Part shown: positions 35,704-58,941 of the stretch, piece after piece | How positions within the stretch are numbered: the stretch's first letter is position 1 | Layout of the letters: each line of letters begins with the position of its first letter | NCBI GenBank assembly: GCA_008933995.1 | Contig: WARS01000008.1 | Coordinates: forward strand, 15,796,148 to 15,860,147 | Direction: 5' to 3' | Source of the DNA: Datnioides undecimradiatus | Taxonomy: Eukaryota > Chordata > Actinopteri > Lobotiformes > Datnioididae | DNA: 64,000 nucleotides | Translations under genes and position numbers: made by a program | Notes under the pieces: generated by a model | What the model was told of the DNA's origin: nothing | The model's database searches: none | Seen by the model: the letters and a program-made list of their open reading frames with translations, nothing else

Positions 35704-38700
35704 ATGGCGCAGGCGTGCGGGGCGTGTGGTGAGACGAAAGGGGCGCGAGAGCACATTTCTGGGCGTGTTGAAGGGTGAGAGCAGTTTTTGTTGGGGAGAT
35801 ACGCGGAGGGAACCTTTACCTTGTGTCTGTATGTCACCGACATCAACAGTGGCGCTACTTAGTAAAGAAAAGCTGTCTTAGCTACGCAAACTGGTCTTGA
35901 GCTAACGTGAGCCTCCAGAATGACGCTGAAGTTGTCTGTGGAGTCTTTAAGTTAAGGGGAAAGTTAAGGGGAACTTAACTTACATCGCTGAGCGACTGAG
36001 CTTTCCCCTTTTCCGCCTTAAACACGTTTTGGACATTTAAGGTGAAGCCTTAAGGCTCTGGGACACCTACTGTCAGATTTATGACACCGCTACTTTATTT
36101 GTGAAGGTTTAACAAAGACCTCTACCACCTCTAGACCACATTAGACCAGATCCAGGTTTATATTAATCCTGATAATTTAGGGACTTTTCAGAGTAAGTTT
36201 TAGATATGTGAAAGCCTTAGTGCAAAAAAAGGGGGAATCACACTACCACACAGGACCCAGCTCTACATGAAAAACCACTTTACTTAATGTTAAACTGCTC
36301 AGATCTGAACTACATTAAATCAGATAAACCAGAAACACTTTTACACAGTTTCAAACCTTTATTCTATTTCTAACAGACACACAGATTGCACTGTTTACAC
36401 CCTACTGGACCTGGTCCGGATCAAAAACTGGTCAAATCTGGACTGGTTCATCACAGAGAAGCGAGAGACTCTAAAACTCCAAGTTTCAGATTTGTAAAAC
36501 TTTTTGTAAAAGTGCAAAAAAAAAAGAAGCAGAGTATAACCAACGTATGTTTGATATGAGGTAATTTCCCTTAAGTCTGTCACACAGGCTTTTATTCAGT
36601 AATTGAACATGCACAGCACCCGATGAAACCAGCTTTTTGAGTCCAGTTTTAACATAATGAGACAAGACAGGCTCAAAGATTAAGCAAAACACCAATTAAA
36701 GATAATAAATGATAATACAACTTGTGATATCACTGCCAGAGAGGTTACAGCTAGGTGGCCGGTATATCAGTTGTCTTATGTTAATATCTGTGATGTGTGT
36801 ATAAAGTTCATTTTGCGTCCTGCAATGATTATTTGTATTTTCACTTTTCCGTCTTTCTCACCAGGAACCTGCACGTCACAGTGCGCCGGAGATCAGATGG
36901 CCGCATGCGCCTGGAGCTGTGCAAAGACTGCAAGCTGTACCACTGTCCCTTCTGCCAGCCGTCCATCTACAAGCCAAAGGGAGACTATGCGAGTGTTTGG
37001 ACGCATGTGGAAATCCACAGGATGAGGGCTTTGCAACATGGAGGTCAGAATACACCTGAAATACATCCAGCGAGTAATAAAAGCAGTTTTTACGTGATAT
37101 CATCATCATGTTTTCTCTTTTGCAGAGTTTAATATACATTCGTGCCACTTGCAGTGCAGAGGAGAGAGACATTTTCATTGTCCGTACTGTGCAAAGACAA
37201 TCATAACTCGGAAACAGTTTGAAAATCATATGGACAAATGTTTGGAGACGCAACAGTCAACGAAGGCGGCAAAGGGAGGCCAGAACGCTGCTCCTGCTGG
37301 CACCGCGGTCGGCCAGTGCGCCATCCTCCTGCTCAGCCTCACTCCACCTTTTCCTCAAACTATCGCGATGGGACAGTGTCCTGCTCCAGCCGAACCACCT
37401 GCTCAGCCAAAATCCACAGCGGACCAGCACCCTGCGTCGCCTGTCAAACCAAACTGCACACCGGGCCCGTGTCCCGCTTCACCTGACCCCCTCGTTGAAC
37501 CCACAAGCACCGCCGTCCCACCCGCTGCTCCGCCTGGCCCCTCGGCTGTGACACAGTCAGCTCAAATAGTCAGAACGATACGGAGAAAAGTAAAATGTCC
37601 AATGTGCAACTTATACTTACACAAAAGCAATCTGAGGAAACATAAACTGAGGAAGCACCTGGTTTCTGAGAAGGACATAACAGCCAAAGACCACCTGAGA
37701 AGTCAGTGCATTGACTCTCACAATGGCGTGTACGCGGTGGCAAAGTCTTACCATGCCACTGCCGTACCGGTCCACGTCATTAAAAAGACATCAGGCAGCA
37801 CGCACAAGCTGCTGTGTGAGGAAGAGCGCTGCAAGGTTATTGCCGACTTTCGCAGGAGGAGCGGCCTGTCGGAGAGCCAGTGTCCTCACCTGCGCTCTGT
37901 TGATTTTTGTTTCGCCCACGCGAGCAGAGAAGACTTGAAACCGTGCACGTTAGACGAACTGGTTGCTAATAAGTGGATCGGGAAGGACATGGCTGCCAAG
38001 TGCCTGAACCGCCGTGACCAAGCGGCCGAGAACACGGCGCCACTCGTTACTCTTTTGGATCTGGGTGGAAGCCATTGCCTGTATCTGTCTGTGCATGAGC
38101 CCAACGCGTCGGAGTGCAGCGAGCTGGGAAGAATATTGGTGACGTACAACGTAAAAGGAAGGTTGTGGCATTGTGATTGTTCCCGAGGGAGAGTTCCCTG
38201 CTTGCACAAATGCATAGCCAAGTGGTATCTCTTCCAAACCAACAAGGAGCTGTTTCCCTCAGGTGCCAAACAAGGTGCAGAGCAGAGTATTGCTGAGCTG
38301 ATGGAGGACTTGCCTGCAGAAGCCTCCACAGAGAAGTCGGCCAGAACGCCGTACCCACGAGGAGAAGAAGGCCTGAAACAAATGGCAAAGTACATTTACG
38401 GCAAAAAGAAACTGCCCGCCGCGTTTTCAGAAAACATCGCCCAGTTTGAGTCCGAAATACCGTTTTCAGATCGTTTGATTCCAGCGGAAAGTGTCTGCCA
38501 AGAGTGTCCGGGACAGGTTTGCCTAACAGAGCCGGTGCTGATCACCAACAAAGCCAGAGTCTTCACTTTAACCGGAGTGATGGAAGGTTTGCCCGACCAC
38601 AGCATGACGCATTCTGTTGTTGTTGTTGTTGTTGTTATTTTGTCGGTCTCATTATGACTTCTTTTCATGTTTTCTAGATAATTCCACCTTTTTTAAGATG

Positions 38701-41700
38701 TGTCCAGACTGTGAAATGGTCTACCATTACCAGGAGTGGACTGAGGGTCTTCACAACTACAACAACCACATAATCCTGAGTCTGCAGCTGTGCATGCTGC
38801 TGCAGAACTCAATCAAGGTACTCGGTACAAGGTCGTTGTGAAAGAAGCTAAATAAATAAATAAATGACATTTTTGATTTTCTCTGTGAGTTGATCACCTG
38901 TTTGTTTTTGTTTTTCAAGAATCAGACCGTCGATGGCGGAGTGGTGGAGGTGCTGGAACGGACGATAGGCGACAAGTCTCCATGCGGCATGGAGGTGCTG
39001 CAGGCGTACCTCCACTTTGAAGCTCTTACGAGACGCGACTGTCGGTCCGCAGTCATGATGGATCTGTATCAGAAGGGGATTTTCAACATGGCGGGTGAGC
39101 GTTGTGGTGTATTCGTGTAGGAACGCGTGCTTTTGACATTTGATGTTCTTGTCGATCGCCGTGTGGGTGAGCGGCAGCCTTTGTGTTTAATCTCGCGTGC
39201 TCACACGAGCTTTGCCTTTTACTCTTGCAGGGATTGAGATTAAAGGCCTGCCTGAGTTCTTCAGTGGAGACGTGAATGCAGAGGAAATCTGGGACTCAGT
39301 GTGTGTGGAGATAATAATGAGCAGCCTGCTCGCCCGTAAGCGTAATTTGCAGACTTGTAGTTCACATTTAATGTAGTTTAGAATTCACCGGGATGTTTAA
39401 TGTCAGCCTTACAGTGTTAACAATGCCCTAACCCACTGAGGAAGCCTTTAAGCATTAGTTATCAAGCCTAAATGGGGTCAGAGGTCAGCGTCTGGCCTGT
39501 GGACTAATGAAGTTAGCCGGTTAGTACAAGAAACCAGTACCTGCAGTTTCATAATCAATTAACTGATAAAGTTAATGTGATAAAGGTCACGCATCTCAGG
39601 TTTCCAAGTCAAAGAGGACAAAATGCCCTCATTTCATTGGTTTATTGACATTTCAGAAGGCCTGTTTTGCTTTTTTCTGCCGTGATGTGAACCGTCAGAC
39701 AACATTTTGTCCTCCTTAACTTGGAAATCTGAGATGTGAGAACATTTTCACGTGTTTCTGAAAACGCCCACGGGAGCTTTGGTGAAGGACTCCACTGTGA
39801 ACCACACTGTTGAAGCACAGCCTTCTCCTCCATTTGGATTTATCCCATTTGCTGCTTTTGTCCTTCAAACATAATACCAAACAGTGTAAATAGAGGAAAT
39901 AAAACAAAGTCTGATGTTTTTATCCCTGTGTTTCCTTCTTAACGCAGGAAGTCCTGCCTGTGCTGCGCCCTCAGACAGTAAGCTCAGAGAGGCTGCGGTG
40001 TCTGCTGTCACAGCCTCCTTCACGCTGGCTGACAGGAAGAGGCTGAGCAGACAGAGAACGGAGGAGTGCCACAGGGCGGTGACCAGATATCTTGTGAAAG
40101 CATTGCTTCCCTTGTCCACAGCGGAGTCGCCGTGGTTCAGGTGGGATTTATTAACCTGGATGCACAAATGTGATCGCGTACGTCCGCCGATACTGATGAA
40201 TTTCTGCTTTCACGCAGGGAAATGACAAAAACACTCAACCCAAAGTACCACCTGCCCTCCAGAGATCAGCTCATTAACACGCTGATCCCTTCGTGGTACG
40301 GTGTAGAGAAGAAACTCCTCATCAAAGAGCTGCTTCAGGCGTCCAAGGCTGCAGTGACGTGCGACTGGTGGACGAGTGTCAGCCACGATCGTTACCTGAC
40401 CGTCACTTTGCACTTCACACTGAAAGGCCGGGTGAGGCAGAAAGTGCTCGGTACGAGGCCGCTGTACGACGCTCAGACGGGCGCAGTAGCCGCGGAGCAG
40501 ATTGGTGGCGCGCTGGAGGAATGCGGAGTCCTGGACAAAGTTGTCGCCATGACGGCGGGTGACGTTTCCGTTGAGGAATTGCACTTTAGGAAGCTGAGAT
40601 GCTTCGCGCGTGTGCTTAATCTCGCCGCGCAGAAGGTTTACACCAGCAGCACCGTGACCAGGTGGGCGTCAAAAGTAAGAGCGGTCGTCGTTTGGATCAG
40701 ACGGTCGTCCGCGGCTCAAACCGTCCTCCAGCAGAAACAGCAGCTCCTCAGTGAGTGCACGAGATCCGTCCCCTTGTCTGTCTTTAGCATTGGTTGTCAC
40801 TCTTACACTGCACGTAAGAGGCTGAAGGTCAGAGCTGCGTCTGTCTTTTAGATCTGCCACGACGCTCTTTAGTGCTGGATGTCCGAGCACGCTGGAACTC
40901 TTTGTACCTCATGGTCGAGAGGTTTGTAGAGCAGTACGCTGCCATACAGGCCACCACCGCAGACCCACTCATCAAACCGTCCGTGGAGAAGAAAAGGTAA
41001 TGATAGTATAGTTAGGCCGAAATGTTGTTAATTAAGTCGATATAAAACTTCTGTTATTTCGCTTTGATTCACTCCGAAGGTTGGAGACGCTGTCAGACGA
41101 CGATCACCGAAAGGCGGAGGAGTTCGTCAGGATCGTGAAGCCTCTGTACACGTCCTCGCTCTGCGTCTCGGCCGACAAGAGTCCGACATGCAGCCAGATA
41201 TATCCCATCCTGAAAAAACTGGAGGCGCACTTCGAAACCCAGGACGAGGACACTCTGTTCACAGCCACGCTCAAGGGGAAAGTCTGGGGTGACCTGTCCG
41301 CGTGTTATAAGGTTTGTGCAGTCCTTTCCACAGGAGAGCAAATTCAAATTTAGCTGTTACGGTACGAGACAAGTAATGATTCCAGAGGTGAGTCGTTCCG
41401 TCTGTGACAAATATAATTTACTAAAACCTAAGAAATCATTCACACCACTCAAACGTCCACAAGACTCCCCGTCACTGCTGTTTAAAATGGAGAAAAGCAA
41501 CAAGTCTCGCTCAAACGGTTTCAGGTTCATTTTCTTTTGATTGACGAATGAATTAAACAGCTGATTGTTTTATTTAGTTCTCAAGGTAGATTTTCGTGTA
41601 TTTTGTTCAACTTTGCCGGAAAAAGTCAAAAACAAAACGACGCTGAATCATAAAAACAGATTAAAACGTGCCGAAAACTGATAACAGGGGGGAAAAATAG

Positions 41701-42848
41701 ATTTCTGAATGATTTGGAAGCACTTGTGTTGGAAATTACTCATAGTTTCCTTCTGAGAAATTCGTTTCTCGTCGTGGCTGAAACAGCTTCCAGAATGATC
41801 ATGAACAGCCACACTCTCTGTGCTTTATTTCAGGATGGTGATACTTGGAAGTTCCTGCAGGAGGCGAGCGCCATGGATCCGAGGTTCAAGAACAGAATTG
41901 ACTCAGAGGAGATTTGGTACAGAGTGAGAAATGCAGCAGTTAGGGACGCGACCACGACGCAGGCACGGTGACCTCTTCTGTTGTTACACCTCTGTGACAG
42001 TATGGTCTGTGTCTGGACTCACTCATTAAGCTCTGTACTGCGCTTTCAAAGTCTCTTCTTATTGCCTGAGAGGGCTGTCAAGACTACGTTTTGTTTCTTT
42101 GTAGTTAAAGGCATAGTTCAGGGTTTCCCATACATAGACTTAATGGGGGAATGAATACTTCAAACACAGGATGCACCAACCACTACAAAGTATCGCTAAG
42201 CATCTTAACCTTGCTGCAAAACCCTGAGCTGTCACGTTAAGTCTTCAGGCGATGAGGTGACATGCTCCCCTTTGTTGTCAGTTTTCAGACTCATCTGTGT
42301 ATTATTTTGATTTAGGTGTCAAATCAGGAGGAACACAGACTTTTACTGCAGGACACTGACGGGGACGATGTGTCTGAGCAAAAAGACAAAGAGTATTCAG
42401 ATGAGGTAGTGACATCCACGTGATACAAACATTTTTATGTTCAATTTACAGTGCAGTTTAACTGGTCTTGTCTTTCCAAATTCAGTTTCCCAAAAGGCCG
42501 AGGTTGTCTGCCCTGGAGGAGCTTTTTGCAGAGGAGGACAGAGCTCTGAAGAGCAGCGCAGCAGTAGAAAAGATGCCTTCGATACCCGAGAGAGTCCAGC
42601 AAGAAATCCAGCTGTACAGAAACCTGCCTGCTGTGCCCACATCAGAGGACGCCCTGGCCTGGTGGTGGGAGAGACGAGACACTCTGCCTCTGCTGTCTGA
42701 GCTCTCCCAGTCATACCTGTGCATCCAAGCATCGTCCACTCCTCGTGAGAGAGTGTTTTCCACAGCAGGGGACTCGTTCAGCCCAGAGAGGTCACACATT
42801 GAACCAGATCTGGCGGATGAGCTGATTTTCCTACAGAAAAATGCTTGA
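35704..42848 (+). CDS. Transposase-derived fusion gene: zinc-finger/SWIM (Zisupton/KDZ-like) half joined to a hAT (ZBED-like) half, 13 exons, ~1258 aa
   Basis: Exons: 35704-35774, 36865-37043, 37126-38586, 38678-38817, 38920-39094, 39231-39335, 39948-40140, 40218-40750, 40852-40996, 41080-41311, 41834-41923, 42316-42405, 42486-42848; every junction keeps phase (3777 nt). N-terminal half (about 1-710): paired-cysteine fingers (LCKDCKLYHCPFC; YCAKTIITRKQFENHMDKC; CPMCNLYLHKSNLRKHKLRKH), a SWIM finger at about 433-444 (CDC-x6-CLH), then CPDC...YQEWTEGLHNYNNHIILSL and VMMDLYQKGIFNM, which resemble Zisupton/KDZ-type proteins as I remember them. C-terminal half (about 711-1258): hAT features CDWWTSVSHDRYLTVTLHF, VRARWNSLY, MDPRFKNRID, an acidic patch, LEELFAEED, and the dimerisation segment LAWWWERRD / RERVFSTAGDSFSPERS. 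The second catalytic motif is degraded. The many introns and long open frames argue for a host gene. Whether one transcript spans both halves is inferred from phase alone; two adjacent genes remain possible. Exon 1 is the least certain. Confidence 0.7.
38618..38640. repeat. (GTT)n run in fusion-gene intron
   Basis: GTT repeat directly after the donor of the large exon. If the intron were retained, the frame would read a poly-Val stretch before a stop. Confidence 0.8.
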
Positions 42849-57583: not shown

Positions 57584-57748
57584 CAGGGGAGAGCGCGAAC
57601 GCAGTCCCCCACTATCATAAATTGTGCAGTTGAGATTCCCACATTTGGGGAATTCACAGAGGTCAGCAAAGCCTGGAGTGCAATGGCCTAGCCTCGCCCT
57701 GGGTGAACCACCTTCGTGATCATGGTATCGCCCCTGCCAGGTAAGTAT
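57584..57748 (-). ncRNA. RNU1: U1 spliceosomal snRNA (variant), 165 nt
   Basis: U1 pairs with 5' splice sites at the start of spliceosome assembly. Reading the minus strand from 57748, the RNA begins ATACTTACCTGGCAGGGG, the full 5'-splice-site recognition sequence. Stem-loop I keeps the U1-70K loop (GATCACGAAGG) and stem-loop II keeps the U1A loop ATTGCACTCC. Stem-loop IV (GGGGGACTGCGTTCGCGC) and the 3' end CCCCTG are intact. Against the human sequence as remembered there are about 18-20 differences, including an inserted A after the U1A loop, paired changes in stem III, and a Sm site reading AATTTATGA instead of AATTTGTGG. It may be a functional variant or an early pseudogene; a PSE-like motif upstream favours expression. 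Confidence 0.9.
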
Positions 57749-57808: not shown

Positions 57809-58753
57809 CTGATTATACTGAAGTTCCCTAAACCAGTTTCTATATAGAGCTGTGTAAAAGTGCAGTAGTATGAATGCAGACGAAAGCGTATTTTGTACTA
57901 AAAACAGAACAAAATGCGTTTAAAATTTAGTTAATGAATAGTGGTTACATATCCCACAATGCAGTGCGGCATGCCCACATCACCAGCTACCGTAAAACCA
58001 CAAGCTTGTATCTATTTTACCTACAACAAATGAATAACGGATAGGTTCAAAGTTCAAAGCTGAATCACATTACCGTCAAGGGATGTTTGTCCAATGTTTA
58101 AAATTCAGAAGAACTAGAAAAACACTGAGGAAATCAAGTTTATCCATCACATTAGAACCACTTCCTGTTCCTTTGATCACCGCTGGTGGGAAACCCGGGT
58201 TCCTGCTACCGCCACCTACAGCTCTGGAGTGCGAATAACGTTCAGCACCAGAAACAACTGCTTTCAAAACGATCCTGCGGCTCAATCAACACATTTCAAC
58301 ACGTCTCAACAAAAACTATAAAATAAAATCCCGGTGAAATGACCGCATTGACCGTTTTAGCTGTTCTCAATTGAAAACTAACAACTAGGTGCATTGTAAT
58401 ACACAATACGTGCATTCGTGTTGCTGTTTCACCGTGCGTAGACAAATTACCAAAGTAACTGTAATAAAGTGGAAACGTGTGTTAGGGAAAAGGGCGCGTT
58501 TTGTATTTTGCCTCACAGCACAGATTGAATCAGCGTGAGTAATCGATGAATGGGTGTTTTTATAAAGAGTGTAGTAAATCAGTCAACATAGTCCCCTAGT
58601 AAATTAATGCTACCACTGCGTGTACATGATGTTTCCAACATGCTACTTAAATGACTATGAATCTTAGTACCATTCTAATATAAATATAGCCTGATATACG
58701 TGAAAAAAACCGTGCAAATGCTACTTTGGTATTATTTTTATACAAAGAAAGGG

Positions 58754-58941
58754 GGGTGCACCGTTCCTGGAGGTACTGCAATACCAGGTCGATGCGTGGA
58801 GTGGACGGAGCAAGCCCCTATTCCATCTCCCTGTTCCAAAAATCAATTTAATATATGGTCCCCGGGTAGGGGACGTATCAGATATTAAACTGATAAGAAC
58901 AGATACTACACTTGATCTTAGCCAAAAGGCCGAGAAGCGAT
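58754..58941 (-). ncRNA. RNU2: U2 spliceosomal snRNA, 188 nt
   Basis: U2 pairs with the intron branch point. Reading the minus strand from 58941, it starts ATCGCTTCTCGGCCTTTTGG. The branch-point recognition sequence GTAGTA is intact within ATCAAGTGTAGTATCTG, as are the stem II region and the Sm site GATTTTTGG. The 3' stem-loops (CATCGACCTGGTATTGCAGT, CCAGGAACGG) and the end TGCACC are present. Only a few substitutions separate it from human U2 as remembered, all outside functional motifs. It has the appearance of an active gene rather than a retroposed copy, since no A tail or target duplication is seen and a PSE-like element precedes it. Confidence 0.95.

Follow-up and report, generated by a model that had tools for sequence, protein, structure and literature searches.

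A likely percomorph host gene joining a KDZ-type zinc-cluster half to a BED-less hAT transposase half

Overall architecture

We analysed a 64,000-nucleotide window of the genome of the fish Datnioides undecimradiatus (contig WARS01000008.1) and describe here a gene that occupies positions 35704 to 42848 within it. All coordinates are positions in this window, and all features of the gene lie on the + strand. We consider it likely that this is a conserved host gene of percomorph fishes, in which a Kyakuja-Dileera-Zisupton (KDZ)-type zinc half is joined to a hAT half without a BED finger, and which originated by capture and encodes a nuclear binding multimer. Over its first approximately 711 residues the protein corresponds to that half of KDZ/Zisupton-type proteins of fish which carries the cysteine clusters and SWIM, and over the remainder to a Hermes-like hAT transposase. 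The first-pass annotation had proposed that two unrelated transposon classes contribute to one protein; this is supported by the homology switch, which coincides with the junction of exons 6 and 7 (39335|39948), and by orthologues that span the junction.

The switch is sharply placed. In BLAST searches with the whole protein, 15 of the 16 KDZ-type rows (P0022–P0037) end at residues 704–719, the other being P0037, which ends at 466. On the hAT side, 48 of the 53 stand-alone rows (P0038–P0092 minus the fusion models P0071 and P0074) start at residues 712–777, and the other five start at 682 (P0049), 704 (P0051), 782 (P0090), 847 (P0073) and 931 (P0083). Many of the rows that start at 777 are partial models opening at the counterpart of exon 8. 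An alignment of nine KDZ-type and four fusion rows indicates that KDZ homology extends to the final residues of exon 6. This exon (39231..39335) is the last with KDZ-type homology and has a phase-1 donor; it is followed by the fusion intron, intron 6 (39336..39947), and by exon 7 (39948..40140), the first hAT-homologous exon. The counterpart of exon 7 is exon 2 of a stand-alone hAT copy in the same genome (locus L002, described below), and both start in phase 1.

The fusion intron contains an inverted repeat resembling a miniature inverted-repeat transposable element (39577–39751), with 49-nucleotide arms that are 84% complementary; no further copy of the arm with up to 30% mismatches was found in the window.

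Occurrence and conservation

The orthologue search scored the 7992 candidates that shared the most words with the window protein, and requires shared exact words. It listed 22 proteins, among which the same joined protein is present in 16 other percomorph species at 92–100% coverage and 59–76% identity. Because these species encode the same chain, we conclude that the 13-exon chain is more than a product of chance. The remaining listed proteins are two further Epinephelus isoforms, two partial models that span the junction (Xyrichtys and Takifugu), one fragment of the N half and one KDZ-type protein (Boleophthalmus). A partial model from Perca fluviatilis (P0071) also spans the junction. The four best-scoring orthologues are 74–76% identical to the window protein, and most orthologues are named only as “uncharacterized protein” in the database. 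The fusion is carried by 18 species, each of them a member of Percomorphaceae: 15 are Eupercaria and three are Pelagiaria (Thunnus, Scomber and Pampus). The exact-word searches returned it from no named species outside the percomorphs.

Trees were calculated for the two halves separately; they are unrooted, with no root inferred. In a quick tree of the N half (residues 236–710; 20 fusion rows and 14 of the 16 KDZ-type rows, P0036 and P0037 being left out) the fusion rows lie on one side of a branch with support 100. They also stand apart in the C half, with support 98 in a tree of 18 fusion and 32 stand-alone rows, and with the same split at 100/100 in a more careful search on 17 fusion and 18 stand-alone rows. 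The pairwise distances of the two halves are correlated (r 0.81 over 15 rows; none of 9999 permutations was as high). Mean identity to the window protein is 68–79% in 11 of 14 segments, falling to 60% at residues 481–530 and to 54% in two segments, that of the proline-rich linker and that of the junction. The fusion rows show almost no variation at the zinc ligands.

Copy number was examined in the animal's own genome (581 Mb in 497 contigs), using exons 3 and 8. The DNA of exon 3 matches one genomic place, in a search that skips very common words, and its protein matches itself plus one locus at 26% identity. The exon 8 protein matches itself, L002 at 51%, and 16 further places at no more than 33%. 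The many near-identical copies expected of an active element were thus not found with either exon. Together with the junction-spanning orthologues and the grouping of the fusion rows in both trees, this supports the proposal that the gene has been kept as a cellular gene. The 26% match to exon 3 (locus L011), the only other one in the genome at the protein level, reads like a distant SWIM/cysteine-rich protein.

Gene model

The proposed 13 exons were confirmed: their phases are compatible, giving a single open reading frame of 1258 residues with its stop at 42848, and all introns are GT/AG in that model. Exon 1 (35704..35774) carries the start ATG, and a similar N-terminus is found in the orthologues P0002, P0003 and P0009. 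Stretches of 300 nucleotides at exon 1 have an observed/expected CpG ratio of 0.89–1.35, compared to 0.70 for the whole window and 0–0.37 for stretches starting at 36.0–36.5 kb. Exon 2 (36865..37043) encodes an N-terminal cluster of zinc ligands (C43, C46, H50, C51, C54, H71 and H75). Exon 3 (37126..38586), of which no near copy was found in the genome, is 1461 nucleotides long and in phase 1-1; it encodes zinc fingers, the proline-rich linker, a C2H2 finger, a SWIM-like finger (CDCSRGRVPCLH) and the start of the CxC4 cysteine cluster, the second half of which is in exon 4 (38678..38817). Exon 5 (38920..39094) also belongs to the KDZ-type half.

Downstream of exon 7, exon 8 (40218..40750) encodes the hAT RNase-H region, in which the first catalytic Asp has been lost (VDN to AGD), while exon 9 (40852..40996) keeps the second (LDVRARWNS). 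Exon 10 (41080..41311) encodes the hAT helical region, exon 12 (42316..42405) an acidic linker, and exon 13 (42486..42848) the C-terminal dimerisation domain, with the third catalytic residue, Glu, kept, and the stop codon.

The 3′ edge of exon 11 (41834..41962) is uncertain. Three ends keep the frame: 41923 (giving the 1258-residue protein), 41938 (1263 residues) and 41962, which uses a GC donor (1271 residues). We favour 41962 because the orthologues P0002 and P0003 read ...TQ|VSNQEE there; P0009 is slightly different. The GT after 41967 was rejected as the donor, since it breaks the frame.

The KDZ-type half

A match to PF18717, CxC4, described in Pfam as associated with KDZ transposases, is found in the N half above the cut-off (E 9.9e-12). 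The motif CDC-x6-CLH reported by the first-pass annotation is present at residues 433–444. It fits what we take to be the SWIM consensus; Pfam lists no SWIM match among the hits of the protein with E values of 1 or less, and the label therefore rests on the motif. In a set of 18 relatives of the N half, three of which are fusion proteins, CxC4 is found in all 18, SAP in 13 (E values of 10 or less being admitted, and the majority falling below the cut-off) and the Ulp1 protease in two. Zisupton is a zinc-finger/SUMO-protease transposon. Pfam finds no KDZ transposase catalytic domain in the window gene, which we therefore class as sharing the KDZ cysteine half rather than as a KDZ transposase. 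The original KDZ/Zisupton label thus stands as regards CxC4 and the SAP and Ulp1 domains of the relatives, and falls short as regards the transposase itself.

Structural searches added little for this half. A sequence search of the PDB with the N half gave nothing meaningful (best E 0.29). The structure model of the KDZ relative P0022 is poor, with a mean predicted local distance difference test score of 47, and a fold search with this poor model returned nothing at E ≤ 0.001, with a SAP-domain chain among the rows.

One relative, P0037 from Aldrovandia affinis, combines sequence like the N half with a cytidine deaminase domain in one model, and is either another fusion or a merged model.

The hAT half

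The C half matches the hAT dimerisation domain PF05699 (E 1.2e-14) and the sequence of Hermes (E 3.4e-11), and has a Hermes-like fold. The BED finger (PF02892) that marks ZBED genes is not found in it, even among hits with E values as high as 1. The relatives of this half are fish “ZBED1-like” hAT proteins, 8 of 57 rows having a listed BED finger and many others being partial models. BED matches were present in all six stand-alone rows run through Pfam, five of which were chosen because BED was already listed for them.

The catalytic Asp-Asp-Glu (DDE) triad of the window protein reads G-D-E, and so lacks the complete set of an active hAT transposase. Among 18 fusion rows it is substituted in seven, including the window, and complete in ten, with a gap in Takifugu; we note that some apparent losses are gaps in gene models. 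Since several lineages, that of the window among them, have other amino acids at catalytic positions, the protein is probably not a transposase.

L002 is a stand-alone hAT copy that has decayed but includes a BED exon; over 326 columns its identity to P0043 is 86%. Three of its introns coincide with introns 7/8, 8/9 and 9/10 of the fusion gene in both column and phase. The next L002 intron is at a matching place but lies past the broken frame, and the region for introns 11/12 and 12/13 is missing. A gain of introns in the hAT half after capture was rejected for the three, since the stand-alone copy has them.

Proposed origin and function

Because of the L002 introns and the phase match at its exon 2, we propose, as the simplest account, that a hAT element was probably captured by a KDZ-type gene through splicing that passed over the BED exon. 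An intron-containing hAT element would have come to lie downstream of exon 6 in a KDZ-type gene. Splicing from exon 6, with its phase-1 donor, into exon 2 of the element, with an acceptor of the same phase, would then have bypassed the BED exon, carrying the hAT introns along, and the second half of the KDZ-type gene (SAP, catalytic part and Ulp1) would have been lost.

As the most likely role of the protein we infer that of a nuclear multimer that binds DNA or chromatin. By analogy with Hermes, the hAT core and the C-terminal dimerisation domain would form a multimerising scaffold. In Hermes such a scaffold brings BED fingers together so that DNA is bound tightly; in the fish protein the KDZ zinc modules would replace BED and supply the targeting.

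A more specific role can be put forward only tentatively, as one that is possible but on balance doubtful. The protein might act in transcription or silencing as a factor peculiar to percomorphs. Its catalytically dead hAT core would form a multimerising ring that concentrates KDZ zinc/SWIM modules on DNA, and the factor would possibly repress the source transposons, with skipping of the SWIM exon providing two forms that read DNA differently. A predicted isoform from Epinephelus lanceolatus (P0018) skips the in-frame SWIM exon (exon 3), and a skip of the phase 1-1 exon 3 would likewise keep the frame in the window gene.

Points against the proposal and alternative explanations

Several observations weigh against the proposed host gene. 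The orthologous chains are predicted gene models, and the Epinephelus isoforms P0014 and P0018 read the region of exons 11–12 otherwise. At the orthologous place of the exon 11 donor (41963–41964) the window has GC and no GT, possibly a GC-AG intron or a recent change of donor. The junction segment (residues 711–745) shares the lowest mean identity, 54%, and intron 6 contains AATAAA at 39898. On the KDZ side, no KDZ transposase model appears in the full Pfam tables of eight relatives at E up to 10, and a CxxC near residue 658 that is carried by all nine KDZ-type rows is absent from the fusion rows. On the hAT side, the ten rows with a complete triad may not have lost catalysis, and 4 of the 18 fusion rows have a defective dimerisation end or none: Thunnus and Scomber have a common nine-residue gap, the Pampus model is truncated and the end of the Takifugu model is broken.

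Among the alternatives, the one that survives best, though unlikely, is that the source of the hAT half was not a transposon but an intron-bearing ZBED1-like gene that was already resident and domesticated in the host. L002 has the same three introns and is the only genomic match found above 33% identity, as this explanation would have it; but its frame is broken and part of its sequence is missing. Furthermore, the stand-alone family looks mobile, judged by its sequences: a Sparus protein is 94% identical to one from the cyprinid Anabarilius over 565 residues, four rows come from Merluccius, and species are mixed in the hAT tree. The stand-alone proteins P0039, P0041 and P0047 are 87–94% identical between sea bream, cyprinid and hake, which suggests horizontal transfer.

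It is improbable that exons 1–6 and exons 7–13 are two adjacent genes, one KDZ-derived and one hAT-derived, joined only by gene prediction. The weak conservation of the junction segment and the AATAAA could be read in this way, as could an in-frame stop 12 codons past exon 6 if it is unspliced and an in-frame ATG closely upstream of exon 7. Against it, single-chain models exist in the 16 other species; the partial Perca model crosses the junction, as does Epinephelus P0018 even though exon 3 is left out between its exons 2 and 4; and the counterpart of exon 7 in L002 is not a first hAT exon but an internal one, in the same phase.

We regard it as very improbable that the gene works elsewhere and is decaying in Datnioides undecimradiatus. 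The lost first catalytic Asp, a changed His in the CFAH motif and the GC at the exon 11 donor would fit decay, but the frame is open, the zinc ligands are kept, the four best-scoring orthologues share 74–76% identity with the protein, and several orthologues with triad substitutions still have a long frame.

A chimaeric element that contains both halves and still jumps is hardly credible, even though each half has relatives among mobile elements: it is rejected as a recent mobile chimaera by the lack of near copies of exons 3 and 8 in the genome, the first catalytic Asp is lost, flanking inverted-repeat pairs are only weak and chance-like (among 25 of the 37 pairs), and the protein differs by 24–41% from its fused counterparts elsewhere.

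Genomic surroundings

The neighbours in the window include a cullin gene, FAM124, an E1 dehydrogenase gene that we take to be BCKDHA, a galactosyltransferase gene and a SNAP gene. Full-length matches to the U1 and U2 small nuclear RNAs lie about 1 kb apart on the − strand, at 57584–57748 and 58751–58941.

Comparison with known systems

The window gene resembles KDZ proteins in the CxC4 of its N half, fish relatives of which have CxC4, SAP and, in two cases, Ulp1; it differs in lacking the relatives' sequence past residue 711 or so, where hAT is fused instead. To hAT, “ZBED1-like” and Hermes proteins it is related by approximately 45–54% identity to full-length stand-alone rows, three common introns, the dimerisation domain and the Hermes fold, whereas BED is missing, the triad is substituted and the N-terminus consists of KDZ-type zinc modules. 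P0020 and P0034 carry database names that refer to HMGXB3 (“HMG domain-containing protein 3”), a protein with a possible KDZ link that has an HMG box and is not known to have a hAT half.

A literature search of titles and abstract openings found no description of a KDZ-hAT fusion gene. To that extent the suggestion that no gene of this architecture has been described holds; the type of event, in contrast, has precedents. We see the significance of the gene in a well-resolved weld of two transposon proteins, with a breakpoint at one exon boundary, matching phases and three hAT introns still recognisable. Transposase capture takes an additional form here, in which hAT seems to give the multimerisation core and to lose its DNA-binding finger, while the zinc modules of another transposon do the targeting.

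The DDE triad is retained in the ZBED genes described so far (PMC3606216), whereas it is substituted in seven of the 18 fusion rows. SCAND3/ZBED9 and GTF2IRD2 are host genes in which one part is hAT-derived or a hATC domain, and SCAND3 is named as the exceptional fusion among retroelement-derived genes (PMC3257199, PMC5426749); their other parts are not KDZ cysteine clusters. The F-box::CxC7 genes of fish, as outlined in PMC12062965, join a KDZ cysteine cluster to another domain, but combine CxC7 with an F-box where the window gene has CxC4/SWIM and hAT. The closest precedent found is provided by ZMYM1, ZMYM5 and ZMYM6, the N parts of which are like the Crypton-derived ZMYM2 and ZMYM4 and the C parts of which come from hAT transposases (PMC3212892). 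There too a C-terminus derived from a transposable element was replaced by hAT, although those genes are found in eutherian mammals and have an N half of MYM type rather than KDZ.
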